Of a stretch of DNA of 64,000 bases, positions 10,736 to 60,394 are shown piece after piece. Made by a program: the position numbers and the translations under genes. Origin of the DNA: Helianthus annuus (taxonomy: Eukaryota > Streptophyta > Magnoliopsida > Asterales > Asteraceae). The stretch spans positions 112,615,591 through 112,679,590 of the forward strand of contig NC_035436.2 in NCBI RefSeq assembly GCF_002127325.2, given 5' to 3'. Within the stretch, counting starts at the first letter, position 1, and each line of letters opens with the position of its first letter. The notes below the pieces were generated by a model that ran no database searches, had not been told where the DNA came from, and worked only from the letters and a program-made list of their open reading frames with translations.

Positions 10736-10748
10736 TGGTATCAGAGCC
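10736..10748 (+). other. Element B primer binding site
   Basis: TGGTATCAGAGCC seven bases after the LTR end, initiator tRNA-Met type. Confidence 0.88.
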
Positions 10749-11348
10749 AATGGTTATAGGGAATTAGGTTATTAGTAATGCTTTAACCTAGACTATAACC
10801 TTTCTAGGACCCCAACACAAGTTATCTTGTGTTAAGATCTTAAAACATGCACTTCACCTATCCTTAGGTGATCACCAAAACAAGAACCCAATTTTCTAAA
10901 ACGATTTTTGAAAAACAATCTTCTGTTTTTAAATGATATATTACATGGTTTTGAACCCTTCCAGTTTGATTTTTGGCCTTGTGCCTTCCAAATTTTCAAA
11001 ATCTCGTAAAGTTTTGGGTTCTAAATAGTGTGAACACGTGCAAACTGGAAGAGTGAATGCTTGTACCATGGGTTTTCTGTCTAAGGCTAGAGTGTTCGTA
11101 CAAATCCACATAATCGGACCAGTCACTCTTACCTGGGAACTCTTGGGGTGAGTGTTTACTTATAGGCGAGCATGTCTTCGCTAAGCATTATTTATGGACC
11201 TATTTACTTTGGTTAGTCACTGTGTGTCGTTTGTCTGCTTTGTGATACGGACAAATGACCACCATCCTTGTTTTTGTTGATTTTGTTTCATCTCGTTCTT
11301 TTTATCTAATCATCTCACTCGTTTCCTCTCATGTTTCCTCTTTTTAGC
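10749..11348 (+). other. Element B 5' leader, no gene seen
   Basis: Noncoding leader between primer site and gag start. I see no repeat array or conserved hairpin in it. Confidence 0.6.
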
Positions 11349-12080
11349 ATGCCTCCTCGACGTGAAAACCTATTAACCAATGCCGAAATGGCAGATATTC
11401 TGGCACAGCACATGGCTGCCGCACTCCCAAACATTATCGCTCAGGTGAACCAAGCCAACAACAATCAGAACGCTCCTTGTAACTTCAAGAGCTTCAATTC
11501 GGCTAAACCACTCAAGTTCAGTGGCACCGAAGGGGCAACTGGGCTCCTTCAATGGTTCGAGAGCATTGAGAGTACATTCCATCACATTCTGTGTCCTGAG
11601 AACTGGAAGGTCGAGTTTGCTTCTAGCGTATTTCAGAAGAGGGCTTTGACATGGTGGAACGGGGTTATGAGAGATCGTGGTGCTGAAGTTGCTTTAGCAC
11701 AAACATGGGATGAACTAAGAACTCTTATGATGAGGGAGTTTTGTCCTCGTCATGAACTGCGAGCTTTGGAAAGGGAGTATGATGATCTGAAGCAAGAAAG
11801 TGGTTACCACCAAGCATATACTGACAGGTATTTGGAGCTGAGTTTATTAAGCCCAACAATGGTTACCCCACTCGAGAAGGCTATCGAGAGGTACATCGAT
11901 GGTCTACCTGACTCAGTGCAAGACATCGTTACTGGTAGTAATCCTACCACTGTCCGTCAAGCGATCGAGCTATTTGCGACGTTGACTGAGTCGGAGATTC
12001 AAAAGGGTAAGTTGCACAGGAAGGGAGACAAGAAGGGTAAGAAGCAGGAGTCTGATAAGAAGGATAGCAAGAAAGGTTAA
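11349..12080 (+). pseudogene. gag: Element B gag, capsid part
   Basis: I chose the second ATG (MPPRRENLLT) because it begins a typical Tekay-like Gag N-terminus; an upstream in-frame ATG at 11331 adds six residues of leader character. The frame has the retrotransposon Gag core (FSGTEGATGLLQWFE, ALTWWNG) and a Lys-rich tail. It ends at a TAA (12078-12080) where the downstream zinc-knuckle region should continue in frame, probably a Gln codon hit by C to T. Gag would coat the genomic RNA in the cytoplasm. Confidence 0.85.
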
Positions 12081-12563
12081 AACAAGCAGGGTAAGGATCC
12101 AGGTTCTGCAAAGGGTTCAAGGAAGCGTAAGGCTTCCCAAAATTTTGCTCTCACTACCCAAGCTAACCAGGCAGCTCCCAATCAGCCTGCACAACTGCCA
12201 GCTAAGAAACAGTATGCAGGGAATGCACCTTTGTGCAACAGACGCAATAGCCACCATCAGCCACAAGTTCAATGTCGTTTCTGTACAAATTGTGGGAAGT
12301 CAGGTCATCTTTCTGATGTCTGTCGTTTTGCTCAGAATCTAGCTGCACGTAGTCCAGCTCGGAAGGCTGCTCAACCGCATGTTCAACAGCAAGCACAAGC
12401 TGCACGACCTCACTTTCCTCCTGGTTCGTGCTTTAATTATGGAGACCTGGCCCATTATCGAAACTAGTGTCCAAGGCTGTTTAATGCAAATCAGAATCAG
12501 GCTCCAGCTCGAGGTCGAGCTTTTAACATGAATGCATAAGAGGCGCAAGCAGACAATAAAGTA
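12081..12563 (+). pseudogene. gag: Element B nucleocapsid region, broken
   Basis: Continues gag after the stop. One intact-looking knuckle, CTNCGKSGHLSDVC, is seen near 12285-12325. A second one, near 12430-12470, has Tyr in place of its second Cys (CFNYGDLAHYRN) and a TAG in front of its last Cys. Another TAA follows at about 12538. RNA binding by this copy would be impaired. Confidence 0.75.
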
Positions 12564-13268
12564 GTGAATGGTACGTTCTTTGTTAATAATCAACCTGCAT
12601 CTGTTCTTTTTGATTCAGGGGCCGATAAAAGTTTTGTGTCATTGTCTTTTGAGCCATTGCTTCGCGTGTCTAGAACAAAACTAGGTAAGCCTTTGAAGGT
12701 AGAAGTTGCTAGTGGTGAACCCGTTGTTCTTGATTCTGTTCTTCGCAACTGCCAGTTGAACCTTAACAACCAACTTTTTCCCATTGACCTCACACCTATG
12801 CAACTGGGAAGTTTCGACATTATTGTGGGTATGGATTGGTTAGCCAAGCATCGCGCAGAGGTAGGTTGTTTTGAGAAGATCGTTCGTGTGCCGCTTTCGT
12901 CAGGCGAGATCCTACAGGTTCACGGTGAGAAACCTGCTAGTAGCCTCAAGCTTATGTCCTGTTTTCAAGCTCAGAAGTATCTGCGAAAGAACTATGTGAC
13001 CTTCTTGGCACATGTTATGGCAGATAAAGGCAAAGGTAAGTCTATTCAAGATATCCATGTCGTTCGGGATTATCCGGAGTTGTTTCCTGAAGAGTTACCT
13101 GGTCTACCCCCAGCACGCCAAGTCGAGTTCCGTATTGATCTCGTACCTGGTGCAAATCCTATTGCCAGAGCTCCATATCGTCTTGCACCGTCTGAGATGC
13201 AAGAGTTGTCTAATCAACTTCAGGATCTTTCTGATAAAGGTTTTGTTCATTCGAGCTTTTCACCTTAG
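12564..13268 (+). pseudogene. pol: Element B protease and RT N-terminus
   Basis: Retropepsin with DSGADKSFVS (12615-12645), the flap region and GMDWLAKHRAEV, then the linker to RT ([21 protein letters not shown]). The frame ends at TAG 13266-13268, where the other copies have the Trp of SPWGAPVLF. Confidence 0.85.
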
Positions 13269-14363
13269 GGTTCTCCCGTTCTTTTTGTCAAGAATAAGGA
13301 AGGATCCTTCAGGATGTGCATCGATTATCGTGAGCTGAATAAGCTTACCATCAAGAATCGATATCCCCTACCTCGCATTGATGATCTCTTTGACTAGTTA
13401 CAGGGTGCTACTTGCTTTTCGAAGGTCGATCTTCGTTCTGGGTATCATCAACTTCGTGTGCATGAATAGGATATTCCCAAGACAGCATTCCGCACTCGTT
13501 ATGGGCATTATGAGTTCACAGTCATGCCATTTGGTTTGACCAATGCTCCTATTTTTTTCATGGACATAATGAATAGGGTCTGCAAGCCTTATTTGGATAA
13601 GTTCATCATCGTCTTTATTGATGACATCTTGATTTATTCTAAGACGCGAGCTGATCACGAGCAACATCTTCGTCTTACTCTGAAACTCCTAAAGAAAGAG
13701 CAACTTTTTGCCAAATTCTCCAAATGTGAATTTTGGCTTAAGGAAGTTCAGTTTTTGGGACATATTGTCAACGAACAAGGTATACATGTAGATCCCTCCA
13801 AGATCAGTACGATTAAGGATTGCGATACGCCTACTACTCCTGCTGAGGTTCGTTCTTTTCTTGGTCTTGCGGGTTATTACCGCCGCTTCATAGAGAACTT
13901 CTCGAAGATTGCAGTTCCTCTAACTGCTCTAACTCAGAAGAACAAACCCTTTGAATGGGGTTCTAAGCAAGAGGAAGCATTTCAGACCTTGAAGCAGAAG
14001 CTTTATGACGCACCTATTCTGACTTTGCCTGAGGGCAATGATGATTTCCTCGTTTACTGTGATGCATCGAAATTGGGCCTTGGCTGTGTTCTGATGCAAA
14101 GGAACAAAGTCATAGCCTACGCATCAAGGCAGTTGAAGGTGCATGAGAGAAACTACACCACTCATGATCTTGAGTTGGGTGCAGTTGTCTTCGCTCTTAA
14201 AATCTGGAGACATTATTTGTATGGCACAAAATGCATGGTTTTCACTGACCACAAAAGTCTTCAGCATATCTTCAATCAGAAAGAACTCAACATGAGGCAA
14301 AGACGTTGGGTCGAACTCCTAAACGACTATGATTGCGAAATTCGCTACCATCCTGGTAAATAG
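13269..14363 (+). pseudogene. pol: Element B RT core and RNase H
   Basis: RT motifs [26 protein letters not shown] then a TAG (13395), a second TAG after HE (about 13467), the catalytic FIDD near 13615, and RNase H ([42 protein letters not shown]). A TAG at 14361-14363 ends the frame before the tether. Most stops fit C to T change at CAG or CAA, or G to A at TGG, as expected for an old methylated copy. Confidence 0.85.
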
Positions 14364-15134
14364 AATGTTGTGGCCAACGCATTGAGTCGTAAGGAACGTA
14401 CTAAGCTTCACTGTGTTCATGTTCAATCTGCTATTCAAGCTCGATCTGATATCCAAGCACGCATTTCTCAGGCTCAGCATGCTTGTGTTTCACAAGACTT
14501 GATGGGTAAGGAATTACCCTGTCAAAATAAGCCTGATCTTGTGCTGAAGGAAGATGGATCGTATTATTTCATGGACCGTTTGTGGGTCCCAAGCCAAGAT
14601 GATCTTCGCACTTTGCTTATGGATGAAGCCCATAAGTCTCGTTACTCTATTCATCCTGGCTCAGACAAGATGTATAAGGATCTTCGTACTCAGTATTGGT
14701 GGCCTGTTATGAAGAAAGACATTGCCTTGTACGTTTCAAAATGCCTTACTTGTCTAAAGGTTAAGGCTGAACACCAACATCCTTCTGGTCTTTTGGAGCA
14801 ACCAGAGATTCCGGTTTGGAAATGGGAAAACATCGCTATGGATCTCATTACTAAACTTTCACGCACTAAGAAAGGTCATGATGCCATCTGGGTAATTGTT
14901 GATCGTCTTACTAAGTCAGCGCATTTCCTGCCGATCCGTGAGGGTCTATCTGCTGAACATCTGGCTAAAATCTATGTGGATGAAATCGTATCTCGACATG
15001 GTGTTCCCTTGAACATTATATCTGACAGAGATGCTCGCTTTTATTCTCGTTTTTGGAGAACCATGCAATCTGCTATGGGGACCCAACTTAATCTGAGCAC
15101 AGCATATCATCCACAAACTGATGGCCAAACTTAA
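14364..15134 (+). pseudogene. pol: Element B integrase, N-terminal and catalytic domains
   Basis: HHCC finger ([13 protein letters not shown]...CLTCLKVK) and the DDE core with the Asp of AMDLITKL and the Asp of SDRDARF. The frame ends at TAA 15132-15134, exactly where the third catalytic residue, the Glu of the TDGQ-E-RT motif, should be, so the nonsense falls on the catalytic codon. Confidence 0.85.
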
Positions 15135-15851
15135 AGAACAATCCAGACTTTGGAGGATATGCTTAGAGCTTGTGTGATCGATTTTGGTGGTAGTTGGGAT
15201 CCACATCCTCCATTGATTGAATTCTCCTACAACAACAGTTATCACTCCAGCATTAACATGGCTCCTTTCGAGGCTCTCTATGGTCGAAAATGTCGTTCAC
15301 TAGTCTGCTGGAATGAGATAGGAGAGGCTCAGCTTACTGGACCTGACCTCATTCTAGAGACAACAGACAAGGTTAAGAAAGTTCGTGATAACCTTCAGAC
15401 AACTCGAAGCCGTCAAAAGAGTTACGCGGACCGACGATGCAAGCCCTTGGAGTTTCAAGTCGGTGATCGTGTATTACTTAAGGTCTCACCTTGGAAAGGT
15501 GTGATCAGATTTGGAAAGAAAGGAAAACTTGCACCTAGATATGTTGGACCATTCAATATCGTCGAAAGAATTGGTAAGGTAGCCTACAGACTTGAATTAC
15601 CTCCTGAACTTGGAAATGTTCATCCAATTTTCCACGTATCCAATCTCAAGAAGTGTTTACCTGTGGAAATTATGGATCGTGAATTCAAATGGCTTAAACG
15701 CAAGCGCATTCCGTTTGTTAAAGTTCACTGGGAATCTAAATGTGGACCTGAGTTTACTTGGGAACGTGAAGATCAAATGAAAGCGAAGTATCCGCATCTA
15801 TTCCCACGAGTTTCTTCTAAACAAATTTCGGGACGAAATTTCCACAAGTAG
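15135..15851 (+). pseudogene. pol: Element B integrase C-terminus and chromodomain
   Basis: Continues in frame after the stop: [44 protein letters not shown], then a chromodomain-like [19 protein letters not shown]. Compared with A, about 30 codons are missing between LKKCLPVE and IMDREF, an internal deletion. The tail runs into the palindrome and the polypurine tract, with the stop at 15849-15851. Confidence 0.85.
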
Positions 15852-15857
15852 GGGAGA
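15850..15857 (+). other. Element B polypurine tract
   Basis: AGGGGAGA followed by C and the LTR start TGTGACA. Just upstream is the palindrome AAATTTCG-GGA-CGAAATTT (about 15823-15841). Confidence 0.8.
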
Positions 15858-16699
15858 CTGTGACATTTGTGCTTGTAATCATTGTGAACAATTCCATTAT
15901 CAATGAAATAATGTTATTTGATCCCAATGTTTATTTGGTTATGTTTGATGTTTTTCATGTTTTGGTTTTTATTCGATTTTAAACTCTATATCGCTTTCTA
16001 GAGAATTATACGCAAACTGGTGCGTAAACGTAATTAGTTTAATGCGACAAATACTCCAGAACATCAATTTATGCTTAACATACCTTAAATAACCTTTACA
16101 TAACTTAGAAATAAGTTTTGAAGGCTTTGGTATGGTAAAATCAAGTTAATTCGCTTATAGGGACTAAGTTGACAAAGTACGAAAGTATAGCAATTTGAAC
16201 TGTGATGAACATTACGGAACATGGCCATAAGTTAAACACACCTTAAATATCCTTTACATAGCTTAGAAATAGGCTTTGAGGGATTCGGTGTGCTAAAATA
16301 AACTTTATGCTCATTTAGGGACTAAAAGCGTCAAAAAGTGCATAAGTTTGCATTTTCGCGCATAACTTACATTCTGAATACATCCGGACATCCAAAAATT
16401 TATGTAAGCATTAAAATATTTTATTTTAGTGTTTGGCATGAGAAAAATCCATTCGTCGCGCAATTTGGATCGTTTTTCGCGCTTATGCGCTTTCCATCGT
16501 AATTAAGCAAACATCGCGATCGTACGACCATACGAACCGACATCCGGAATATTTTTTAGCATGTTTCTTGTCCACAATGTTTAAGCATCATTTTAGGGCC
16601 TTAAAGTTGGCTTAACGGGCCTTAAACATGTTGGAAATGGCTTTAAACACCAACAGGGACTGAAACTGTCATTTTTCAAAGATGTTTGCTGATCAGAAC

Positions 16700-16750
16700 C
16701 TCAGGCGAGGCGCGTAAGGATTGGTTATACCTTACACGGGGCGCGAGGGC
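16700..16750. repeat. Paired GTAAGG/GGCGCG words upstream of element B TATA
   Basis: GCGCGTAAGG followed by CCTTACACGGGGCGCG gives an imperfect inverted repeat about 200 bp upstream of the TATA box. Solo LTR D has CTTACGG words at the same relative place. Confidence 0.7.
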
Positions 16751-16940
16751 CTCCCAGATCTGTAGAATTGCTGAAAACAGCTGTTAACAGTTGTTATGCA
16801 CTCCAAAACCACTTGTAAATGGTATTTCTCAAAACTTGGGCTTAATCTATGGGCTCTAATGGTTTCCCAAAACAAGGGGCCCATGTGTACGGCCTAGATT
16901 GAAGCACGTTTTTCGACGAACGATCCTAATGGTTGTGCCA

Positions 16941-16953
16941 TACATATATAAAC
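16941..16953 (+). promoter_or_regulatory. Element B putative TATA box
   Basis: TACATATATAAAC followed by a pyrimidine-rich stretch, as in plant LTR promoters. It lies about 1.9 kb upstream of the conserved-loop hairpin, which would therefore be transcribed. Confidence 0.6.
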
Positions 16954-18487
16954 TCAACTCATTTCATTCATTCCTCACATTTGAATCTGATTCAAGCTCT
17001 ATAAGTGGAAGTATATGCTTCCTACCTGAGAGTGAATCGGGTCAAATCTTGCGGGGACCTTCTGTAAGTATTCTTTCGTGTTTTTCGTTCGTTTTAGCGT
17101 TAAAGTCAAACTGTGTTTGACTTTCTGCATTGACCAGTTTATGGTCAATGCGAAGTTCGTTTGAACTCCATAACGTGAGCGTAATCACAATGGTTATAGT
17201 CACTACCTACTAACTACCACGTTATCTAGGCTCAGTAACGGGTCGTACTTTCGGCCAAAATGCGTTTTCTCGCGTATTTTGTAACCAAACTACTCTAGGG
17301 TATCAAAATCGTTTGTTCTGATACCAAACCTGTTTTCCAACTTAACTAAACATGTTCTAGCATGTTTAGCTCGTCACTTTTTAGATAGTGCTTGTCAAGG
17401 GTCGTAAAGGTAAGCGATCTAAACAATCACTTATACTTTCGAACCCGACCCATTTGGTCGATCATTAGGGTCTGACCAAATACTTTAGGTGACCATAGTT
17501 GTATAGGGAATAACATCCCGAAGTTATACCTTATGGTCGCGTCGTTTAAGTAGTTGTATGATAGGTAATGTATGTATGCCATAGGAAAATTACCAAAATA
17601 CCCTTTTTGCGCCAAAATTCATTTTAAGCATAAGTAACATAACTTTTGACATCTAAACTGATTTGGCAACAATATTAAACATGTTAAGGCATATCTTGCT
17701 TGTCATAGGGCTAGTTAGGCGTTCCGAACGCGTTTTACGCAAACGACGCGTTAAAGTAGCATAAGCTACCTAAACGGATCATAATGGGTCAAAAGCACTT
17801 AATATAGGTTTCGTTTTAGTATGTAGGCTTTGTCAAACCATATTACATATGTGCCCACACTTATTTGGTTTACAAACCCTCGTACTACCCGATCCTCCGA
17901 TAGGTCCGTTAATTAATGTAGATACCTATATTAGGTGTTGTTTGAATCCGTGATCTTCTAGCTTTGCTTGGTGGTTATCCTAGGACTTCTAAGCAATCTC
18001 AAGTGAGTACATAGACCCCTCTTTTACTGTTTTCCAAACATTTTGGGGTGAAACACATGTGCCTACTTGTTACTTTCATGCTTTCCATGTTTTCATACCA
18101 TATGCTTGTTATGTTCATTAGTACACTTATAGTACATGATTTCATTGTGTTTTTGCAATGTATGTCCATTGTGTGCAAAATTAGTACATCGTTTTACATT
18201 ACATTTTATGCTATGTATGTCCATTGTGTGCATACTTAATACATTGTTTTACATTACATTTCACGCTACATATGTTCATTTGATTACATACTTAGTGCAT
18301 TGTTTTCACATGCTTACATTTTGGTATGACATTTGGTCTGTTTAAATGGGACAAAAATACATTCATTAACATTGATCACGCAGTTCGTTAGTAGGTAGTG
18401 GTACCATAGGAATTGACAACTCCCATTCCTGACATCCTAGGTATGTTTGGATGAAAGGAATGACCGAATTCGATATACATTAACTCA

Positions 18488-18518
18488 GATAAACCTTTAA
18501 CTTGTTTAAAGGTTTATC
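18488..18518. repeat. Perfect 13-bp hairpin in element B LTR
   Basis: Arms GATAAACCTTTAA and TTAAAGGTTTATC (18488-18500, 18506-18518) with loop CTTGT. Confidence 0.9.
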
Positions 18519-18883
18519 GCCACAGTCGCAAGGCTTGAATGTATGCATTTTCACAATACCGTATAGATGTTTGTATCAGTATAGCATGCATTTCCACAAA
18601 ACATAACGTTGATTTAAACCATGTTTTACTTCAATATATTGTTTTGTGCATTTTCACCTATGGTTTAGTTGATACATATTCCACTTGCCATACATGACAT
18701 TTTGTTTACACATTATTTGATTGACATTTGACATAAGACATTGTGATATTGATATACATGTTTCATGGACCACATTTTGACATAAACATTTTGACATGGT
18801 TTACACAAAGACATTTGACAAATGATTTAGACAAGGGCAATTCACATTGGTGGTTTGTTTGGGAAAGTGATTTAAGTAACGAG

Positions 18884-18962
18884 ACATGTGTAATATGGTA
18901 CAAGCATGGTGGATACGCCACTGGTACTTCCTATATATAAGTGCTTGTATTGTATTACATGT
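18884..18962 (+). other. Conserved-loop hairpin, copy in element B LTR
   Basis: A 35-nt core (18907-18941) starts TGGTGGATACGCC and ends CTATATATAAG. The flanks 18884-18906 and 18942-18962 pair with each other over about 21 positions, including G-T pairs that would be G-U in RNA. The innermost pair is ACAAGCA/TGCTTGT. Function unknown. Confidence 0.8.
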
Positions 18963-19540
18963 TGTAGCGTTATTTAAATCATTCAATTTGGACTTATACA
19001 TTTTATACAAATAGCATACTTTTCATAAGACTTTGTTTTACAAAGAAATTGGTTTTTATACAACTCATTTTACTTGGTTATTCATTTAACCATACATTAC
19101 TCTTTTAATTATACATATCATCTGATTCATTATCGTTTTTCAAATAATTTATACAAAAAAACACTTAAACTTGATTCATGACAAGTTTTCATTAAACATT
19201 TTCTTAAACCTAAGTCATGAATCCTATTTTCACAAAACCTATGTTACTCACAGGCATTTTTATGCTGACGTACCTATTTTCACATGTGTTTCAGGAGCTA
19301 ATGCATAGGACGTTCGTGACACGCTAGGGTGGACTTGGGCCTTAGTGACATAAAATGAAGCTAGACTAGTTAAAACATGTTATGTACTCTTTGTTTCATT
19401 TTGTTTCAAGACAATGTAACTCTTTGGTTTGATGAATAAAATATAACTTTGTATGCCATGGTTGTGGAACAATAATTCTGTTACAACATTCCTCGACGTT
19501 TCCGCCACGATTTGATGTTTTACGTGGTCAGGGTGTGACA

Positions 19541-20681
19541 CCGAACTAGATGACCAAGGTAACTAGAAGGCACGCAGATGAACACTCATCTAGACCAAAG
19601 ACAACCATGACGAGGTCAGCAACACGACAAAATTTTATGCGATGAGTTGTTGCGAATAAAATGTTTTAAGTTAAAATTTTGTATGAACTAGATGGAAATA
19701 AAAAGGGATTGTTCCGAATTTCCGAGCGCAAGTGTAATAAAGTGAATTTTGGTTATATGTTTTAAACCTTAACGAGTCGTCTAATATGAGTTGAACATCA
19801 CAACCCTAACCAGTATCGTAACCTATGCCCAGAGCTTGGAAAATTCGAGTCGAGGGCACATGGTGGGGATAATTTTTTTTTCCTGATCTCAAAATTTGGT
19901 TTTATAAAATAATAATAAAATGTAATAAATATATACTGTAAATGTTCTACTTGAGGCCAAAAAAATGTTTTCCCTGAAGTTTAACGAAATATTTTTCTAG
20001 ATAAACTAAGTTGCTTTTGTACATGAACAATTTATAATACCAATGTGCTACACTTGGTAAAGTGTAAAAAATGTTAACAAAACGAAATGCACGTGACTTG
20101 AGTTAACAAAGTTATGGCTTCCTTAATTTATCTTAGGACCCTTCTACTTTTTTCTGAATCGTAATTATCGCCCGACTGGTGGAACTATAAATCAATGCTG
20201 CTACTTCATCTCCTCCAGCATTCGACTTCACGTTTAGTTTTCCCTCATTAACGACCTCACCTGCTACTCTCACTTCGTATCCTTGGCGTTTGCACTAACG
20301 CCAATCGATACAAATATCAACTCTTAATCAGTACCGTTGATAGCTTGTGCCGTTGTCACGCTTTCAACGTTACTATTTGTCGTCATTTTCATCCTTTACT
20401 CAGACGTTTTTATGTATCATTATGTTATGCATTTATGATTTGTTTTATTGCTAGTTCATGTTGTTGCAGTTTCACATCATCACTTATCACGACTTACTTT
20501 TTCCCATAATTTGTGTGATATGGGTATCGTCTCACTTATTCATAGACTGGCCCTTTTCCCTAAAACTATGGATGTATGTACTGCCACCATTTAGTCGCAC
20601 CCTTTTTGGGTTCGAGACTCATACAATAGTTGGTTGTGGTTTCGTTGTGGTTATTTAATTAGTAAGTTGAGTTGAGTTGTC
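19541..20681 (+). other. Element E internal sequence, no gene recognised
   Basis: AT-rich, with runs of T and A and no frame with a recognisable domain. I see no polyprotein motif here. It may be pol-derived sequence decayed past recognition, or a leader-like insert. Confidence 0.5.
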
Positions 20682-20823
20682 ACATAGAACCAATCAAAAC
20701 CACTAACGAAGCCAATGAAATTTGATAAGGACATGGTGGATACGCCGCTGGTACTTCCTATATATAAGTGTTCTTATCAAACCATCAAAAGCCTTGTTAG
20801 ATTGGTCGAGAGAGGTTCTATGT
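20682..20823 (+). other. Conserved-loop hairpin, tandem copy 1 in element E
   Basis: Core 20734-20768. The outer arms share ACATAGAACC with its complement at the base and TTTGATAAGGACA/TGTTCTTATCAAA next to the loop, giving about 50-nt imperfect arms. Confidence 0.8.
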
Positions 20824-20843
20824 AAGTTGTGTTTGCGTCGTCA

Positions 20844-20965
20844 GTCATGATCCGAATAACGAAGCTGATGAAACTTGATAAGGACATGGTGGATACGCCG
20901 TTGGTACTTCCTATATATAAGTGTTCTTATCGATGTATCAAAAGCATCGTTAGATTGGTCATGAG
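20844..20965 (+). other. Conserved-loop hairpin, tandem copy 2 in element E
   Basis: Core 20887-20921 differs from copy 1 at one base. Arms pair over about 42 positions (for example GATAAGGACA/TGTTCTTATC next to the loop, TCATGA/TCATGA at the base). Confidence 0.8.
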
Positions 20966-20983
20966 AAGTTGGTTTGAGTCGTC

Positions 20984-21108
20984 AATCATGATTTGAATAA
21001 CGATGTGGATGAAAATTTGATAGGGACATGGTGGATACGCCGCTGGTACTTCCTATATATAGGTGTGTCTGTCAAATTTTCAGAAGCAGCGTTAGACTAA
21101 TCATGAGT
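20984..21108 (+). other. Conserved-loop hairpin, tandem copy 3 in element E
   Basis: Core 21029-21063 ends in AGG instead of AAG. The arms changed together relative to copy 1: GATAAGGACA/TGTTCTTATC becomes GATAGGGACA/TGTGTCTGTC, which includes one A-T to G-C pair change and two pairs turned to G-T. Confidence 0.8.
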
Positions 21109-21395
21109 GTTTGAGTTAGTTTGTGTTGGTTTTGTGATTGGAGAATTCAAATTCTATAATTTTGCTCATTCAACTCAAATTGTGGCATTTTATGAGAATT
21201 TTTTCTTTTCAAAATCCCAAGTCGTGACACAGATTGCAGTCGGGCATCACATGTATACCTCACGACTTAGTTGCAAACTCTCTCGTGTTACAAATCATCT
21301 TTGGGACATGACTTTCTCTTTAGCTACAATACATCTTGATACGCCAATCTTGAGCTTCGTGATTGTAATGATCATAGAGCCTATAACCGGCTATC

Positions 21396-21734
21396 TTGTA
21401 CATAACAGTTAACACTCTTCATTTTCTGCATCCTTGGCATTTGAAAGCGATTCCTATAATTGGGTATGTAACCCTTGTCAGGAACGCTACCGCCTCAATA
21501 AGTCTACACCTCTTGATATATCCTAGTTCGAGCGAGTTCCCAGCAACGTTGGGACTTGTGTATAACACTTGTTGCCTGACATTCCTGAGGCACAATCCGA
21601 TCTTAAGATTCGAGTTCCTAACGCTATTACTAAATCAAGCAAAAATCGTTACGCCAATGAAAGACCCTACACTTAATCCTACACGAGCGGTTTCCTCCAA
21701 ATTTTGGGACGAAATTCTCAAAAGTTGGGGAGAC
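21396..21734 (+). pseudogene. pol: Element E integrase C-terminal remnant
   Basis: The frame around 21520-21734 reads FPATLGLVYN then FLRHNPILRFEFLTLL, which resembles the integrase GPF-to-chromodomain junction of chromoviruses ([18 protein letters not shown], then a VLxxE segment). It ends SKFWDEILKSWGD beside the polypurine tract. No catalytic domain is left. The match is by eye and weak. Confidence 0.5.
21720..21734 (+). other. Element E polypurine tract
   Basis: AAAAGTTGGGGAGAC then LTR start TGTAACATCC. Just upstream is a weak form of the palindrome, AATTTTG-GGA-CGAAATT. Confidence 0.7.
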
Positions 21735-21846
21735 TGTAACATCCGCCAAAATCGGATCTCCGAAATCCGACCCGGATTTCAAAACTGGACCCATTCAAGT
21801 AAATAAAAATCAGAATTTTTAAAAATTTTAATATTAAACTATTAGA
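21735..21846 (+). repeat. Element E 3' LTR, segment 1
   Basis: First 112 bases of the LTR, ending at the TTAGA target duplication of solo LTR D. Confidence 0.75.
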
Positions 21847-22430
21847 TGTCACACCCCGACCACGTAGGACAACAAACCGTGGCAGAAACGTCGGGGAGTG
21901 TTGTAACAGAAGCTATCGTTTCACAACCATGGATACAAAAAGTGTTTCGTTTTATTGATATAATTAAACATTACATTGTCTTAACACAGAATAAACAAGT
22001 TTTACATTGTCTATCACTATTATTATGTCACTAAGGCCTCGTCCAGATCCTATGTGATGCATGCATCCTAGTAATCAATCAAGCATCAACACCTGAAACA
22101 TATGTAAAAACTTAGTCAGCAAAGAAATGCTGGCGAGTACATAGGTTTTATAAGAGTACCAGAATCATGGCTCGTTTATATGTTGCAGTACTTTATTAGA
22201 CTACAAGAACCAAAAAAACGCAAACCTCGTTTTGAAAAGTGTATTGCAACATAGTTAACCAACTCAAATCAAGCGGGTTATAGTTTATAAAATCGCGTAG
22301 CCATGATTCTTAACCCAAAAACATTTGCTTTAGAAAACCAACTTGTAAAACATCTTGTAAAAACTCGTTAAAACTCGTATATTATTTCGAAAACCTCGTT
22401 TGTGTGATATCGTTCCAAAATCGTTTACCC

Positions 22431-22549
22431 AAGTGAACTAAATAACGCCACGGTATGCAATATGATGAAAACACTTATATATAAGAAGTACCAACGGCGT
22501 ATCTACCATGTTTTCACCACATTACCCCCGTCTCGTTATCTAAACACTT
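22431..22549 (-). other. Conserved-loop hairpin, copy in solo LTR D
   Basis: In LTR sense (minus) the core at 22474-22508 reads TGGTAGATACGCC...TATATATAAG, also 35 nt. The arms pair over about 40 positions and share no sequence with those of B or E; next to the loop they are GTGAAAACA/TGTTTTCAT. Confidence 0.8.
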
Positions 22550-24168
22550 AACCAAAAACCAATCGTTTATCGAAATCGTTTAACATCGTTTCCAAATCTT
22601 TCCCAAATCTTTTACTCGTTCCCAAATCGTTTCCAATCGTTCCCAATCGTTTACTCGTTTCCAAATCGTTTAAATCGTCATCGTTTTAATTGTGAAAAAC
22701 TTATATATGGTCGTCTCGTTAACAACATTCAAACCTTTGTGACTCGTCCATCGTTCAACTCGTTCTCATATTAACAAACCACCAAAGGGTAAGTTAACAA
22801 ACATCAGATTCAGTCGCTACCCACAACCCCCACACATAACCATGGGTGTAGTAAAGTAACGGGATTTGTCAGATCCTATGGTACCATAACCTAATACTGG
22901 TCGGCTTGATCAATGCTAATGAATGTCATTCGTTATGTAACTACAACCAACAAGTTCATTCACTTTATCGAAATCGTTCTTAGTTTAGTAAAAAAATCGT
23001 TTGAAATCCTCGTTTAAACTTTGAAAATATTTCGTACATATGAATCACCCCAAAACATTTAAAAACAGTAAAATAGGGGAACTATGTACTCACATGTAGT
23101 GCAAAGTATTCTCGATCAAATAGAACTTCAACAAACTCGAGCAAACCAGAGAAATCAAGTAGCTCCTAATAATCGAACCACTAGTCAAACAATAGACGCC
23201 TAAATCGGAAGATCGGACAGAATGAGGTCTTGTAAATCAAATGAGTGTTGGAACTCATGTGATATGGTTAAACAAAGCCTACATCCTAAATCGGAACCTA
23301 ACCTAAGTGCTTTCGACCCATCGTGACTCATTAAGGTAGCTTACGCTACTTTAACGCGTCGTGCGCGCAAAAGCGCGTTCGAGACATCTAACTAGTCCTA
23401 TGACAAGTATTATATGCCTATACATGTTTAATTATGTTACATAATTAGTTACGTGACAAAAGTTTAAGTTACATATGCTTAATTACCAATTATGTATGAA
23501 AAGGGTATTTTGGTAATTTACCAAAGGCACATAAACTACTTATCATGCGACTAATCAAACCTATGTGACCATAAGGTATAACCTCGGAAGGTTATTCCCT
23601 ATGCTACTATGGTCACTAAACATGTTTGGTCGGATCCTAATGATCGACCAAACGGGTCGTGTTCGAAAGTCTAAGCGGGTGTTTAGTCCGCTTGACTTAC
23701 GACTCTACATAAGCACTAAACTAACAAGTGACGAGCTAAACATGTCGAAACATGTTTAGTTAAGTTAGAAAACAGGTTTTGATATCAAAACAAACGGTTT
23801 TGACATCCTAGAGTAGTTTGGTTACAAAATACGCGAGAAAACGCATTTTGGCCGAAACTACGACTCGTCACTGAGCCTAGATAACGTGGTAATCAGTAGG
23901 TATAGTCACTAGGGACTATAACCATCGTGATTACGCTCACGTTATGAAGTTCAAACGAACTTCGCGTTGACCATAAACTGGTCAAAGTAGAAAGTCAAAC
24001 ACGGTTTGACTTTAACGATAGAAACGAACGAAAAACGCGAAAGAATACTTACAGAAGGTCCCCGCAAGATTCGAACCCGATTCACTCTCAGGTAGGAAGC
24101 ACAAACTTCCACTTAGAGAGTGTAGAATCAGATTCAAATGTGAGGGAAATGAGTGAAGGGTGGGGGGG

Positions 24169-26307: not shown

Positions 26308-29300
26308 TGTAACACCTCGAAAATTTACGTCCAATAATGTGTTGACACGTGTCATAGACTTTGAAAATGCGAAAACATACTTTAGAGGGACTAAAGTTGA
26401 TAAACAGTGAAAACTATGGAACGTAAGGGTCCAAAGTGTCAACAATGGATCATACGAAGCGGAAATTGCACGAAAGTGAGGAATTGCAAACTATAGGGGC
26501 CAAAAGTGTCAACATGTTGAATTTATACCTCTGAGTGAACTTTTGGCAGACCCGAAGCTTTTTAATGCTAAAATATACTCACTAGAATATGTGGTAAAAA
26601 TTTCATGAAGTTTCGTTATCATATGAGAAAGTTATGGCCAAAACCGTACTTGAGGGGTTAAAAGCGTCAACGTCGAATTTCATGACTTTTCGGGTGAGCG
26701 CAAAGTTAACCGAGGACATTACCATGTTGGTAAATGTCCCAAGGTTCTTAAAAACCAGATTTGAGGGTTTACGAGTCGAAATAAATAGCCAAAACCTCGC
26801 GTGCGAAGACAGGGACCAAAACTGCCAACATTGAACAAAGTTTGGAACCTGCAGACACCAGGCGGCCCGCCTGGGCTGTCTTAAGCGGGCCGCATGCCCC
26901 TACCAGTAACAGAAAATCGCAAAAATTTGATTTTGGGTCAGTTTTGTGAGTTGGGAACAGCTGGTTTCACCTCCCATTTGCACCAATAGATAGCCATGCA
27001 TGTAAGGACACCTGGAAGCCTCTTATAACACCTGAATTCCTCTTAAATTCAGATCATTTCTCATTTTGGGGGGGGGGGGGGGCACTTGTGTTAGTAACAA
27101 GAACACCCACAAGCTTGCAAGAACTCACAAGGCTTTCCAGGAGCAATCTGATCGACAAGGCAACTTCCAAGTGCTATCTAGGCTTCATTAGGACCTTTGT
27201 AAGCCTTCATATCATTCTCTAATCCGTTCTAGCATATAGTTTGACTTTTCGATTAAGCGAAATTGGCTCTGTCATTTCTCAAATTGAAACCACTTATAAG
27301 TTGGTATTTAGGTGGGAAACAAACCCTCAAAAGGGTATTCTCTGATTCCCACTCTAAGCATGCTATTTGTCGAGTCAAAGTTGTTCTTAAAAAGTCAACA
27401 GAAATCGTTTTTGCAAAATATAGCATAAATGGTAATGTAGGTGACATGCAATCAGTTTGATCATCAAAAAATAACTTATAATGAATATAAGAATGTGTTT
27501 TATCATAATCAACTCGACAATCTTTAGTATAAACCCGGATTGGAACCGAAAGTCTTATAAAACGACTTTTTCGTTGACTCTCGATTCGGATCCGGGCATG
27601 CATGTTTGAGATCTGTATTAGAGTCTATTTTTGACCATTTTCATTTAAGTGTAACTCTCTGGAATTTTTACTACTCGAGTCTATGCTTAGCCGATTCATA
27701 TGCATGTTTCCAATTATGCTTAAAAGTTGACTATTTTGCCCTTTTTGATAAAAAACGTGATTTTTGGAAAAGTGAAAGAGTAGAAATCTTTATTACTGAT
27801 TTATAAACTTGCACCGAAAATTTGAGGTCAGTTGGTGGTCCAGATTTTGAGTTATGGCCGATATCGTAAAACTATATCTTTATGTTACATAAACGGCGCA
27901 TTTAGCGTATAACCTATTTAAGGCCACTTTTTGATATAAAACTTTTTACCCACTGATGTTATATAATATTTTGGGATTTTTGAAGATTTTTATTTAATTT
28001 TTGGCTGATCGTATCATAGGTCGCTAAGTTGATTCGGTTAATGTCGATTTTGACCGTTTAGGCCATAAAATGAGTTTTATACATTCTTTTGACCCCAAAC
28101 CTTTTTCTACTGATTTTAATTGTTAAATAAAGTATTTTGAGCATTCTGGAAATATAAAAATCTCAGCTTTCTTTTAAAAACCCGGAAACGGCTCTAAATC
28201 GCATTTTTAGCATTTTTAGCGCATGGTAAGCGTTATACTCATATTAAACATATAAGACTTATACCTACTGATGTATTTAGCATATTTTTATAAAATAACA
28301 GTAAGTATAAGTTTTTGAGCTCAGGTTTCCAGTTTTGACATTTTTAGCCCTTGTGAAATTACCAAAATACCCCTACGGTGCATAGTTTGATTTTAAGCGA
28401 TAAGTTTCATAAACGGGTCATACCCTACTGTTATACTATGTCAAATGAAGTATATCTACTGTATAAATTAGACCTGTAACTCAGATTTCCAATTTAACTC
28501 TTTTATAATCTCTTAAATGACCAATATGCCCTTATAAGGCATAAATTGAGTTTAAATTCATCCGGGGCATAATAGAACATAACTTGCTGATATTATATCA
28601 TATTTAAAGCATATTATCTCAGGGAACTTGCATATGACTCTTTTGGATACACGTAATGCTCTTTTAGCGTTTGGTTCGGTTTATGTAACTAGTTTGCATA
28701 AATTGACCGAAACGGGTCAAACGTTATCATTTTTGTCTCAAAATCCAGAATGTATTTAGTATACCCATATTATACAAGTATTCAAACTTGTCGGGTCTAA
28801 ATCACATTCTATCCGGTCTTCGCTTAATCGTGCGCTTGAACCGTATATTTCCTTAAAACTAACCGGTCTAAGTTTAGGCTTAATTAAAGACCCGTTAGTA
28901 TTCTAATTGGTTATTTATACCATCGTTCCAGACTAGAGCCTTCCGGTAAATTGTACCTACGCTTACTTAAGTGAATACGGCTGAGTTATTATAATTCTTG
29001 CTATTTAAGACAGGAGCTAGCTCAGGTAAATACTCTTAACTTATTTTCCCTATTACGGGCTTGGGATACGGTAATATAAATACCGCATGGTCAGGTATGG
29101 GATTCGAAGACCAATGAGTCGGGAAATTCAAATAACCTGTTTTAATTTGTATTGCTTGACTGAAACATTGGGGGTTAATGCGACCGTGTCCTGGATATCC
29201 TTGACTCATTAAATGCAATGGCCACGACCTAAGCACGGGGTGTAGGCATACACCTGACAGATGCTTTATGCTATTAATCGATTATACCCAATAAGGGATT

Positions 29301-29856
29301 CCCAATAAGGGAATAGTGGTGTGTCGGTTAATCTTGAACCGGCATAGTACCAGGCCCCGTATGTAGAGTAAGTTATGTAAAACTGATAACATGAGATATA
29401 GTTTGTCCCAAGTATAAAAGATTAATCTTGCCTTGTGCATTTTAATCAAGTGTCAAAATAGTTTTGTGCCTTGTGCGCCTAAACCAATTTTCATAAACTC
29501 TTTTCAAATGAGTCAGTTGAGTGTATTTACTAGTGAAAACTGACGTATTTTCCAAAGTCTAAGTGACAGGTACAAGTACGTAATAGGCTGGAAGCTGCTC
29601 AGGGCGTTAATAAGGAATCTTGCAAGTTCTAGGCGCCTAAAGTCTGTTGAACAACATTTAAGTTTTAAGATCCGCCTGTGGATCCTCTACTTTCCGTTGT
29701 AATACTTGATATTACTTTATATTCGGATTGTAATATATTTATCTTTTGCTTCCGCTGTGCATTATTATATTGTGTTGTTTGTCTATGACGATGCAAACTA
29801 CGTCACGATACCCCACACCGGGCCCACCGGTGACACGTGGAGATCGGGGTGTGACA
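26308..29856 (+). repeat. Element F 5' LTR (3549 bp)
   Basis: TGTAACACCTCG...CGGGGTGTGACA. Relative to the 3' LTR it lacks a segment after 26449 and one after 27236, and it has a run of 15 G at 27068-27082 against 7 in the other. The hairpin GCGGCCCGC/GCGGGCCGC is at 26862-26893. Small ORFs occur in both LTRs in the same places and show no domain. Confidence 0.93.
26862..26893. repeat. GCGGCCCGC inverted repeat in element F LTR
   Basis: Perfect 9-bp arms (26862-26870, 26885-26893) with a 14-base loop; each arm is itself a near palindrome. Same in the 3' LTR at 36591-36622. Confidence 0.9.
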
Positions 29857-29859
29857 GGT

Positions 29860-29872
29860 TGGTATCAGAGCC
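29860..29872 (+). other. Element F primer binding site
   Basis: TGGTATCAGAGCC, three bases after the LTR end. Confidence 0.9.
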
Positions 29873-32773
29873 AACATTGAGTGAATTAAACACTAGCTTT
29901 TTGTGTTTAATCTCAATGACACAATAGCACATTCCTTAACCTTCTGAGTCTAGACTTAACATAGGAATACCCTCATCTCTATTCGGAGAATTTTTGTTTT
30001 CAATTCTATATATTCTTGATATGTCGTCAAGCAAAGAAGCTATAATGGAAATTCTCCCCATTAGAAGCCTAGGGAAGGCTGAGCTTCGTACCGCGACCAG
30101 GATTAACGTACGACCAAGGAGGGGACATTCAGAACAAAATGAAGAAGAGACTCCTTTTACTGAAGATCGTTTTCTTAAAAGTCTTTATAATGATAATTAT
30201 CTTCTGGTCCCTTTGAGGACAACATCATTTCTTTTAAGTCCCTTTTTGAGCAATTCTATATCTCTTTTGAAACCATTGGGATGTTTTATCTAAATTTCAT
30301 TTATTCAATATATAAGAATATAATATATGAAATAAATTAAAGTAACATTCCTTTTTGCAAGATCTACCATTATTATAAGATGGCAAAATCTAAACAGGGA
30401 CAAGACCTAGCTCAGGTGTCATTTAAGACAGAGCCAAGATGGTATCTCCATAATTAGATTCAGATCCATAATTAACGTCTCAACTTAGGATTGATCTGCG
30501 TTATGTTAAAAAGAGAATCTTAGGGGTGAAACCTAGCCACGTGTCGTCGCAGACATGGCCAAGATGGTAGAACCTGTCAAAAAGATTCCAAATTTATGTT
30601 AACATCTGAAAGTGTGTTAACATGCTGGGCAAATTGTGATGCAGTATAAATCACACGGGCCATATTTGAAAATTGGGATTTATTTAAAAATTCCCTGTAA
30701 GTAAAACAGCCATCCATTAAGGATGAAGTGCCTACGGGTAATAAATTTGAAAATTGGGATTTATTTAAAATTCCCTGTAAGTAAGATAATCATCCCTTAA
30801 GGATGAAGTGCCACGGGCTATAATACACTATCCGATTGCGACATTGACAGTTGTGATCTTTTGAGATTCCCCGTCCTAAGGGGGTGAGCTATGCTCAAGA
30901 CCCTCTAGACGATAATATGGTCGTCATGTCATTATTATGACCGCTGAATGACAATTGATTTAAATTAAAGTACTAATCCTGTCGTTATGTCATTATTATG
31001 ACCGCTGAATGACAGTTGATTAAGTGCTAATCCTGCCGTCATGTCATTATTATGACCACTGAACGACAGTTGATTAAATTAATGGCACTGATCATGGCGT
31101 CATGTCATTACTGTGACCGCTAAACGTAACATCAGTGCAATGACTATATGTCTTAACATCTTACGAAATGTTAATTGATAGGCCCACGGGCCAGAAATTT
31201 TAATAAAGACAGTCGTAACCTATGACTCCCTGTCAGAAAAAGGTAATGAACTAAGTTCAAACCTCAAGGCTTTGATTCTCTGAAATCCTAGCTTATAATT
31301 TATAAATGTCCTTGTGACTAGGCCTTTGTGCCACCTTAATATCCTAATGTTTTATAACTAGGATAAATTGTAATGCCTCGATTCTCAGAAATCATAAATT
31401 ATAAATTAAACTTGTCTTCTCGACTAGGCCATTTGTGCTATTACTAACTTATAAATTAGGATTCATGATAAAAATCCTGAATAAAATAAATATTATTCCT
31501 TTTCTGTTAAGTGTATGTATTAAAGGAGAATCTTAAAGGGTTTGACCTAGCTTGAATGTCATTGAAGACCTTGCTAAGATGGTAAACCTGTGTAGAAGAG
31601 ATTCAGATCCTGATTAACACTTGAAAACGTGTTAATACTCCCGACAACAGTGATGCGATAAAATCACGCTTGTCATCCCTATATTAGGAACTTCCAAACC
31701 CCTTAATCAGTCTATATAATAGATAGGAATCATGGCTAGTAAACGTCGAACATGATGTACACATCTAAACATCCACCTGGGATTGTATACCTACGGGCAA
31801 AGATGCATACATGAAAACGATAGTTTTATTACATAACTTCTGGTCAAGACAATGAAATATGAAATTTTCCGATCCAAAGGAATCATTGATTATGTTTTAA
31901 AATTTCCCTAGTGACAAGGCGTCTGTGCCATCAAAAAGTCCTTTGGAACAAGCCCTTATGCTATATAAAGTGCCGGTACGACATTGACAGTCGTGACGTA
32001 TGTCCCCTGTCTATTAAATATGAAGGATTATATTCCGTTCAAACTCCAAAGATGGTTTATCTAAAAACCTAGGCCAAGCATAATCAAATAAATTTAATAC
32101 TATCTATTGGTCCATATGGTTGAGTTACACCATGACTAGTTAATCGCCACGTTCGACAATTAGCTGTATAATTAAACAATTATTATTACATGGTTAGTTA
32201 GCCTTCAAGGCTTCACCACGGCTGACTCCTCTGGGGCTCACAATCATCTAGTTAGTCAGAATGATGTACATTGACTAGCCTTTGTGGCAAAATAAATTAT
32301 CTTCCAAAAGATGACGGTTGTAGTCTTTGACTCTCTATCCAAAGGTGAAGAACTATGTTCGAACCTTAAGATCTCTGATCCAATAAGATTACAGCTTATA
32401 TATTAATGCCCTAAGTGCCATATTTTGTATGTCCTTTGTGACAAGGCCTTCGGGCCTATGATTATTAATGTCCGACATGACAAGCCTTCCAACTATCTAA
32501 AGATTGTCGTTATGACAAGGACAGTTGTGACATTGTGATCCCCAGTCAAAAGGTAATGGACTCGGTCCAAACCATGAACAATTGATGGTCCTTTTTGACC
32601 TAGGCTAGATACAATTGACATACTCTCTAGTAGCATACTATAAGGAAGTTATAGACCTAACAGCCCTTATGGCTTAGTAATACCATGACTTTATAAATCA
32701 TCCGTTACGATGATTCCATAATAACTTGCATCTAAGCATACGTTATTCTTGGTGTTAGTACCAAAGCTCCAGA
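29873..32773 (+). other. Element F leader built of diverged repeats
   Basis: No long frame. A module with ACCTAGC, CCAAGATGGTA and GTTAACA recurs at about 30380, 30510 and 31525. A 70-base unit with AATTGGGATTTATTTAAA is duplicated (30667-30740, 30749-30815). A unit with ATGTCATTATTATGACCGCTG occurs four times (30918-31140). A motif like GTGACAAGGCCTTxGTGCC recurs at about 31310, 31410, 31905 and 32435. It looks like an expanded untranslated leader. Confidence 0.6.
30021..30293 (+). CDS. Small ORF in element F leader, unknown
   Basis: 91 codons starting MSSSKEAIMEILP, basic in its first half and hydrophobic at the end (LLSPFLSNSISLL). It lies about 150 bases after the primer site. I do not recognise it. 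It could be a relic of a Gag N-terminus or a chance frame. Confidence 0.25.
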   Translation: MSSSKEAIMEILPIRSLGKAELRTATRINVRPRRGHSEQNEEETPFTEDRFLKSLYNDNYLLVPLRTTSFLLSPFLSNSISLLKPLGCFI

Positions 32774-33946
32774 ATGGAAGTTTCCGACAAAGCACACAGC
32801 AATACAGCGGCTAAAAACAAGGATGCAAATATAAATATAAATGTTAATGGCACTACTCTTCAGGCCTTGATTAGCGCAGCAATTAGTGAAGTTGTGGATA
32901 AGGTCCTTGAGAACAAAAAGGAACCGAGTGTCACTCACTCAAAGATCTATACGGAAACGCATACATCAGCTCATAAGGAGAGCTCCGTTCACTCTTCAGA
33001 TGAAAAGAGCGAACCTCAGGAGTTAGTACTCTATGATAAGCCCCGTTCAACTGAGGGCGGGTGCACCTACAAATATTTCGTCTCATGCAAACCCAGAGAT
33101 TTCAATGGCGAAAAAGGAGCAATTGATGCTATGGAATGGCTTGAGGAAATGGAAACGGTTGTGGACATCAGCGATTGTGCTGATAAGGACGTAGTAAAAT
33201 TTGTTTCACAATCTTTTAAGGGAGAGGCTCTTGTATGGTGGAAGGCCATGATGCAGTCCACGGGGAAAATTCCCCTATACCTTATGGGATGGTCCAAGTT
33301 TGTGGACCTCATCAAAGAGAACTACTGTCCACAACACGAAGTGGAAAAGGTGGAGACAGATTTTCTGAATCTCACTATGAAAAACCTAAATTGTCAGCAA
33401 TATGTTACCGACTTCAACTCCCTATCTAGACTGGTACCCTATTTAATTACCCCGGAACCAAAACGCATTGCGCGTTTCATCGGTGGTTTGGCACCAGAAA
33501 TAAAAGGGGATGTTAAGGCTTCAAGGCCAACCAACTACAGATCAGCTGTAGATCTATCCTTGTCTCTCACTCTAGATATAGTGAGACAAAAGTCGTTCAT
33601 GAATGAAACTAATGACAAAAGACAAAGGGAGGAGGATAACTCTCAGAATCCTAAGAAGAGCAAATCCAAGCTCAACAATAACCAACAGGATTCCAACAAA
33701 AAGCCCACATGCAAAACCTGCAAAAGAAGACATTGGGGGCAGTGTCGACTAAACCAAAAGATAAAGCAATGTGGCATCTGTAAAAGAACTGGCCACCAGT
33801 CCCACGAATGTAGGGACATGAAGGACGCAAACTGTTTCAGCTGTGGTGAAAAGGGACACATCAGTACTAATTGCCCTAAGGCTGTCAAGAAAGGAGCAGC
33901 TAGGTCTGGAAAGGTTAAGAAAGGAACCGCCTGGACTACCGGTTGA
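32774..33946 (+). CDS. gag: Element F Gag (intact)
   Basis: 390 codons, no internal stop. The N-terminal 100 residues are hydrophilic and Ser/Glu-rich. The Gag core spans about residues 100-270 (YKYFVSCKPRDFNG, AMEWLEEME, ALVWWKAM, ENYCPQHEVEKVE, FIGGLAPEIKG). A Lys/Asn/Gln-rich linker leads to three Cys-rich fingers: CKTCKRRHWGQC, CGICKRTGHQSHEC and CFSCGEKGHISTNC, the last two being CX2CX4HX4C knuckles. The short basic tail ends at a TGA. It would form the particle and bind the RNA. An intact gag beside a destroyed pol suggests that Gag in cis still helps this element spread while enzymes come from elsewhere. Confidence 0.88.
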   Translation: MEVSDKAHSNTAAKNKDANININVNGTTLQALISAAISEVVDKVLENKKEPSVTHSKIYTETHTSAHKESSVHSSDEKSEPQELVLYDKPRSTEGGCTYKYFVSCKPRDFNGEKGAIDAMEWLEEMETVVDISDCADKDVVKFVSQSFKGEALVWWKAMMQSTGKIPLYLMGWSKFVDLIKENYCPQHEVEKVETDFLNLTMKNLNCQQYVTDFNSLSRLVPYLITPEPKRIARFIGGLAPEIKGDVKASRPTNYRSAVDLSLSLTLDIVRQKSFMNETNDKRQREEDNSQNPKKSKSKLNNNQQDSNKKPTCKTCKRRHWGQCRLNQKIKQCGICKRTGHQSHECRDMKDANCFSCGEKGHISTNCPKAVKKGAARSGKVKKGTAWTTG

Positions 33947-35941: not shown

Positions 35942-35942
35942 A

Positions 35943-58753: not shown

Positions 58754-59456
<703 letters not shown>

Positions 59457-59542: not shown

Positions 59543-60394
<852 letters not shown>

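Follow-up and report, generated by a model that had tools for sequence, protein, structure and literature searches.

A Covarying Hairpin With a Near-Invariant 35-nt Loop in Ty3/Gypsy Retrotransposons of Sunflower: A Candidate Replication-Cycle Signal

Hairpins and Their Elements in the Window

The stretch analyzed here, a window of 64,000 nt from the sunflower (Helianthus annuus) genome (C4:112615591-112679590; positions without a locus name refer to it), holds five copies of a hairpin carried by long terminal repeat (LTR) retrotransposons. Judged from its sequence, the hairpin is a structured RNA element in which a covarying stem of about 17 bp adjoins a near-invariant loop of 35 nt (the core) and is followed by a lower stem. 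All five copies described in an earlier note on this DNA are present at their places, where each was recovered by folding and by a model match: hairpin B (18866..18983, plus strand, core 18907-18941; model R1, 90.1 bits) in the 3' LTR of a Ty3 element; hairpins E1 (20690..20815, core 20734-20768), E2 (20845..20964, core 20887-20921) and E3 (20990..21102, core 21029-21063), all on the plus strand, with E1 upstream of a polypurine tract (PPT); and hairpin D (22426..22554, core 22474-22508), inside an LTR on the minus strand. The flanks pair around the core in every copy according to minimum free energy (MFE) folds (B -50.6, E1 -35.4, E2 -45.5, E3 -39.5 and D -49.4 kcal/mol; z-scores against shuffles -7.9, -3.6, -6.4, -4.7 and -6.5, respectively), and by these folds the hairpins span roughly 110-130 nt, more than the extents first given. 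The cores of B, E1, E2, E3 and D differ from the commonest 35-mer by 1, 0, 1, 1 and 3 bases; those of B and D are therefore 4 apart, the largest difference that had been claimed. The arms had been called unrelated between B, E and D. They do differ, but the word is an overstatement, since they are homologous arms that have diverged by matched changes: B and D are LTRs of related elements whose hairpin regions align at 78%, and the E arms have TAACGA and loop-near bases in common with the others.

The element that ends in LTR B is the most readable carrier in the window. On the plus strand, it shows a primer binding site (PBS; TGGTATCAGAGC, 10736..10747) followed by the motif TATAGGGAATTAGG (10748-10770), a broken gag-pol region with pieces of gag, aspartic protease, reverse transcriptase (RT), RNase H and integrase (11310..15851), the PPT (GGGACGAAATT...GGGGAGAC, 15830..15858) and the 3' LTR (15859..19540), which ends 634 nt past the core start. 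With its coding pieces ordered gag, protease, RT, RNase H, integrase and with PBS, PPT and LTRs, it belongs to Ty3/Gypsy, probably to the Tekay lineage. The PPT of element E lies at 21706..21734 (plus strand); the LTR of E follows from 21735 onward, broken by D near 21847. Measured from the TATA box, hairpin B lies at about 1.96 kb and hairpin D at about 1.67 kb, in keeping with the earlier description.

Covariation of the Stem

The stem was studied in 94 hairpin records, of which 89 are distinct in sequence, read with flanks of 65 nt from the window and from loci L009-L088; cores less than 65 nt from a locus end and loci L001-L008 were excluded. The loci had been selected for containing the first 25 nt of the core, all within the first 14.6 Mb of C1, and some extra hairpins in them are incidental. 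By flank identity the records fall into 11 clusters (59, 11, 8, 3 and 2 members, plus six singles), and 35 representatives have flanks less than 90% alike. With arms of 32 nt, at least 12 arm-to-arm pairs form in 93 of the 94 records (median 27). As controls, 288 of 2000 positions drawn at random from the window reach this number, and so do 382 of 916 inter-cluster swaps of arms, the swaps because loop-near bases are partly common to clusters. Copies of the core with non-pairing flanks had been named as the finding that would speak against a structured RNA; the single record of this kind, L069, keeps the core and has lost its 3' arm by deletion, which is read as decay. Longer stretches fold weakly relative to shuffles in some loci (z -0.7 in L010, -0.8 in L012 and -1.7 in L031).

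Alignment of the representatives without L069 and with window D (A1, 35 rows) gave an RNAalifold structure of 23 pairs, 14 of them with double changes; among the 17 arm pairs, 14 show double changes. Pairing is found in 91.6% of the cells, compared with 78.6% in shuffles and 33-53% with slid partners; double changes occur in 82 cells (20.1 in shuffles), and the covariation score is 0.495 (shuffles 0.253, slid partners at most 0.146). For instance, columns 59/105 contain A-U 17, C-G 8 and G-C 8 times, and columns 62/102 contain A-U 13, G-C 13 and G-U 9 times. A stricter alignment of 31 rows (A2), from which L069, L012 5085, L012 4988 and L082 were left out (arms deleted or shifted), gave 92.6% pairing and a covariation of 0.537 versus 0.269. 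Relatedness among the rows was taken into account by a tree-aware null, scripted as an equivalent to R-scape, in which the parsimony changes of each column on a FastTree tree (all columns outside the loop) were rethrown on the branches. None of 1000 null alignments reached the observed pairing (91.6; null mean 58.4, maximum 72.0), the observed G sum (312; mean 113, maximum 223) or the observed number of double changes (82; mean 35, maximum 79). Individually, 8 of the 17 pairs were exceeded by at most 49 of 1000 nulls (uncorrected), and two arm pairs have a G of 0 because one side is invariant. Compensatory changes of the stem thus exceed the phylogenetic background, as expected of a structured RNA and as the earlier note had asked of it, and genomic copies, covariation and fold all favor its reading of the hairpin.

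Constancy of the Loop

Between clusters, mean identity is 1.00 at loop positions 26-35, which were not used in choosing the loci, 0.50-0.51 in the arms and 0.27-0.29 farther out. In the 3.01 Gb searched (334 contigs), the first 25 nt of the core (TGGTGGATACGCCRYTGGTACTTCC) have 21,964 exact matches (10,976 + 10,988 per strand) and the 35-mer has 34,927 matches with at most three mismatches (17,427 + 17,500), whereas reversed-sequence controls of both gave 0 genome matches; such repeat counts are lower bounds. Within the window, the 13-nt core start has seven matches with at most two mismatches, five being the described copies (shuffled windows: mean 0.75, maximum 3). Searches in which part of the loop was left free point the same way. 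With 12 middle positions free there were 18,656 matches; GCTGGTACTTCC is found in 89 of the 100 that were listed, and the other 11 depart from it by 1-2 bases. With 11 first-half positions free there were 21,965, of which 100 were again listed: 90 have the exact sequence and 10 a single change, which in six cases is a C-to-T or G-to-A substitution within ACGCC. A second loop family was not found among the matches listed for either pattern, which come from one end of C1. The possible GGTG/CGCC pairing inside the loop is broken by one base in D, and paired and unpaired loop positions are equally constant.

A model search turned up two exceptions to this constancy. About 570 nt upstream of an intact copy, L022:4437-4476 has a hairpin of the same build without the core (z -6.9). 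An unfiltered covariance search returned the known copies, their antisense, and other weak matches taken as chance, except L028:8144-8218 (E 0.25, z -2.3), which lies 112-186 nt before the PPT of L028. Its loop has CGGTGGACGCACC and TATATAAGTG, with a would-be inner stem GGUG/CACC instead of GGUG/CGCC, and this loop type has 697 + 705 genome matches at up to three mismatches (control 0). The same element has a canonical hairpin in its LTR besides this diverged one.

Preference for the Transcribed Strand

The earlier note had taken G-T pairs in the stems as a sign of RNA. In line with this, the sense strand folds more stably than the antisense strand in B (-50.6/-30.2 kcal/mol), D (-49.4/-20.5), E2 (-45.5/-30.9) and E3 (-39.5/-21.2), although the antisense fold of E1 is no weaker than its sense fold (-35.8 versus -35.4). 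Across the sample, sense energy is lower in 89 of 94 records with the natural loop and, when the loop is replaced by A, still in 81 of 94 records, 29 of 35 representatives and 11 of 11 clusters. The sense advantage is 6.6 kcal/mol for true arm pairs and 3.8 for swapped arms; it is therefore partly a matter of base composition, since swapped arms favor sense too. Likewise, G.T outnumbers A.C by 64 to 15 in the representatives, compared with counts of 344 and 197 for swapped arms (p 0.002, although the cells are not independent); with one record per cluster the counts are 27 and 8 (p 0.14). Hence, both G-U excess and folding energy favor the transcribed strand, with E1 and the one-per-cluster count indecisive.

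Placement and Coding Content of the Carrier Elements

Carriers were judged in 25 elements (L009-L028, L089, L090 and window B, D and E). They are Ty3/Gypsy LTR retrotransposons with gag-pol, with gag only, or with no coding match, and the hairpin lies in their untranslated parts, in the sense direction of its element in all 25, as had been claimed for the window. In 23 of them the orientation follows from a PBS or PPT on the same strand, and L017 and D could be oriented only by LTR end and splice signal; on the opposite strand, some loci contain the PBS or PPT of further elements. Twelve elements carry the hairpin inside the LTR (13 hairpins), with the core starting 606-662 nt before the LTR end. 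In another 12 it lies between coding region and PPT, with the nearest core 354-1139 nt before the PPT (503-677 nt in nine of the 12). In the remaining element, L089, it lies between PBS and gag: L089:4298-5403 has five consecutive hairpins there, with exact loops and differing stems, in an element with gag and RT.

LTR-type hairpins appear to sit within a putative spliceosomal intron. A donor of the GTAAGTATTC type is found 1.4-2.3 kb upstream of 9 of the 13, and a conserved GCTGAC...TTTCAG|G, starting 328-388 nt past the core start, in 11 of the 13. In the window, the putative intron would span 17064..19294 on the plus strand around hairpin B (donor GTAAGTATTC, GCTGAC, acceptor TTTCAG) and 22093..24052 on the minus strand around hairpin D. 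If so, only unspliced RNA would retain the hairpin, and it is unspliced RNA that packaging signals and transport elements mark.

Coding content could be judged for 16 of the 25 elements, the nine others being too incomplete. B, L011, L027 and L089 have gag and pol pieces; L012, L013, L022 and L090 have gag without a pol match; and L010, L016, L018, L019, L020, L023, L026 and L028 have PBS and PPT with no gag or pol match. Among the last, L018 retains a zinc-knuckle open reading frame (ORF), and pol matches at L023:5-2140 fall outside the LTR of L023. Between L022 and B-type elements, Gag identity is only about 31-34%.

Sequences Shared by Unlike Carriers

Since the loci were picked by the core, a hairpin common to them is expected; the telling point, as far as these alignments go, is how little else unlike carriers appear to have in common besides PBS, PPT and LTR ends. 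Twelve element pairs were compared at E 0.01, and L090 was compared in addition. Exactly three islands, namely the hairpin, the LTR end with the PBS and some 50 nt, and the PPT with the LTR start, are common to L010 and B, B and L022, L010 and L018, and also L090 and L022. To these islands L090 and L010 add one 54-nt match to both LTRs and B and L012 one 38-nt match, while L010 has further LTR and other pieces in common with L022 and with L012. L021, read without its PBS region, has hairpin and PPT only in common with B and with L022, and hairpin, PPT and three short matches with L010. Related element pairs match widely. That PBS, PPT and LTR ends are nearly the sole other common sequence argues for a role of the hairpin in the replication cycle.

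The motif behind the PBS, TATAGGGAATTAGG, is present in 14 of 16 carriers, with a one-base variant in L028 and L089. Among hairpin-free relatives, those at 60694 and 6401 (minus strand) have TATAGTGAACTTGG behind the PBS, and those at 29860 and 57311 of the window and at L010 8430 and L014 7926 (minus) have other sequence there. Between loop and motif a short duplex is predicted, which is no more than a lead, since shuffles equal it in 18-165 of 300 cases across 15 carriers; cofolding of two hairpins predicts an extended dimer duplex through TATATATA, which does not help to choose between readings.

Proposed Function and Alternative Explanations

These observations suggest that the hairpin could be a cis-acting replication-cycle signal, one that most likely serves to package and/or dimerise genomic RNA, and we give this reading a probability of about 0.5. 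The roles listed in the earlier note (packaging, RT control, export and small-RNA production) are thereby narrowed only in part, toward the replication cycle. As expected of a packaging or dimerisation signal, the hairpin lies in sense and is common to autonomous and dependent elements with PBS and PPT. Its orientation and place would put it in genomic RNA; the constancy of the loop and the covariation of the stem strongly suggest that the loop would be recognised and that the stem merely presents it. The company of PBS and PPT and the existence of pol-less members suggest that the recogniser would be part of a shared Ty3 machinery, and it would most likely be the nucleocapsid part of Gag of gag-pol members, acting in packaging or dimerisation, by analogy with BARE2 (see below) and from the arrangement of L089. 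Retroviral packaging signals usually lie between PBS and gag, as the L089 hairpins do. An autonomous lineage would use the signal, families riding on that lineage would use it too, and RNAs with the hairpin and the right PBS, PPT and LTR ends would be copied in trans. More tentatively, and with chances slightly short of even, loop, PBS, PPT and LTR ends together could serve as a passport that admits a guild of Ty3 elements to a common replication machine, whatever their coding content or hairpin place; the second loop type (~1,400 copies) may be a sister passport.

Several points weigh against a packaging or dimerisation signal. The place of the hairpin varies (5' leader, LTR, before the PPT), and such variation would be equally compatible with a transport element; L022:4437-4476 has the stem without the core and L069 the core without the stem; a single reader for the L022 and B types is not obvious, given the low identity of their Gags; and the sharing of the hairpin is ascertained, the loci having been chosen by the core. 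The main alternative, which we consider rather unlikely, is an RNA export or stability element of the constitutive transport element (CTE) kind, the loop of which would be bound by a host mRNA-export factor exporting unspliced, intron-bearing RNA. Location within the putative LTR intron, tandem copies and tolerance of position would suit such an element, and the frequent place shortly before the PPT, and hence before the 3' LTR, resembles that of the CTE of Mason-Pfizer monkey virus (MPMV). However, a host factor should serve other superfamilies, whereas the readable carriers all have the same PBS and PPT type (a weak point, as carriers alone were sampled), and the hairpin-free Ty3 relatives in the window manage without it. 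A constant core on a covarying stem in tandem copies is also the pattern of a ribozyme, and a novel self-cleaving one, with a catalytic core on a drifting stem, would have a precedent in retrozymes, which place ribozymes in plant LTR elements (PMC4918200, in its accessible part). Nevertheless, this is quite improbable: no Rfam family matched at gathering score, with chance-level matches below it, and no known ribozyme model matched, by which known ribozymes were rejected. Moreover, ribozymes let inner stems vary, whereas paired loop positions here are as constant as unpaired ones.

At the DNA level, the loop contains a good TATA box, which could make it a promoter core (TATATATAAG), or else the arms of a palindrome could have been matched by template-switch repair; the antisense strand folds too (89 of 94 records with at least 12 arm pairs), in E1 as stably as the sense strand. 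An origin of this kind is improbable in view of the excess of G.T over A.C and of the lower sense energy of the arms alone, with the reservations on clustering and composition made above, and in the 12 of 25 elements where the hairpin lies shortly before the PPT, a promoter there would yield useless transcripts; the core as a promoter was rejected since 13 of 25 elements have the hairpin outside the LTR. That the short islands common to the families reflect a module without present function, passed between them by recombination during reverse transcription, is highly improbable, as such transfer would bring the stem along, whereas stems differ by matched double changes. Least probable is a Dicer substrate, a hairpin like a microRNA (miRNA) precursor yielding small RNAs for or against the elements. 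The stem is long and B has a weak, chance-level match to a miRNA precursor family (E 0.44), but the stems, which would be the source of small RNAs, vary around a constant loop, contrary to the pattern of miRNA genes; a miRNA precursor was rejected, as there is no conserved mature arm, the arms being about 50% identical between clusters. A miniature inverted-repeat transposable element (MITE) was likewise rejected, judged on the variable ends with a constant centre, the reverse of a MITE as the earlier note had observed, and on the fixed places of the hairpin inside LTR elements.

Relation to Known Systems

In barley, RNA of the Ty1/copia element BARE2 is packaged in BARE1 particles (PMC3735527, as far as its available text goes). 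Packaging and dimerisation signals are common to BARE1 and the parasitic BARE2, and two features there resemble the present case: Gag-less elements keep RNA signals for entering the particles of an autonomous partner, and unspliced RNA is replicated (PMC3735527). Unlike there, the elements here are Ty3/Gypsy and of many families, with one near-invariant 35-nt loop on a covarying stem, in up to five copies and variable place, and its packaging role is putative. The CTE of MPMV (cited in PMC10309623) is similarly a hairpin RNA with a conserved, recognised part that tolerates changes of position and aids unspliced RNA, whereas the sunflower hairpin has no Rfam sequence match and its role in export is putative. 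Retrozymes resemble the carriers in being non-autonomous plant LTR elements in which a conserved RNA motif is repeated (PMC4918200), but here there is no hammerhead or other ribozyme match, and carriers include gag-pol elements. In sunflower itself, TR-GAG elements have two LTRs around gag alone, as do L012, L022 and L090, in an account of these and other non-autonomous elements that covers coding content and, in its accessible sections, mentions no shared RNA hairpin (PMC9784723).

Cis signals of retroelements and parasitic partners are thus already known kinds, whereas the hairpin RNA itself is new to Rfam and to the literature searched. Rfam release 15 gave no window match at gathering score and chance-level matches only for the hairpin sequences; the core was not found in IMG/VR or in the bacterial and archaeal genomes searched; its letters had a single match in the text of papers, of 13 letters, in a chicken paper; and no report of the hairpin was found in the literature searched, the coverage of which leaves out most subscription papers. 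Little is known of how plant LTR retrotransposons select the RNA that they package, or of how pol-less families ride on others. With ~35,000 copies, the loop could be used as bait in binding or pull-down experiments and to mark, across the genome, families with possibly common machinery; a constant loop on a drifting stem is also a natural experiment in RNA evolution. If the passport proposal is true, the hairpin would rank among a plant genome's most abundant structured RNA motifs.

Other Features of the Window

Elsewhere in the window, repeat pairs of 98-99% identity (27233-29856 with 36987-39610, and neighbours) surround a gag ORF (32774-33946), and the whole (26308-39610) resembles a young LTR element that lacks the hairpin. 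A direct repeat of 95.5% identity (45440-47613 and 60698-62887) is probably the LTR pair of a minus-strand element. At 58381-59729, on the minus strand, a simple-repeat expansion encodes a long threonine run in a gag-like frame.

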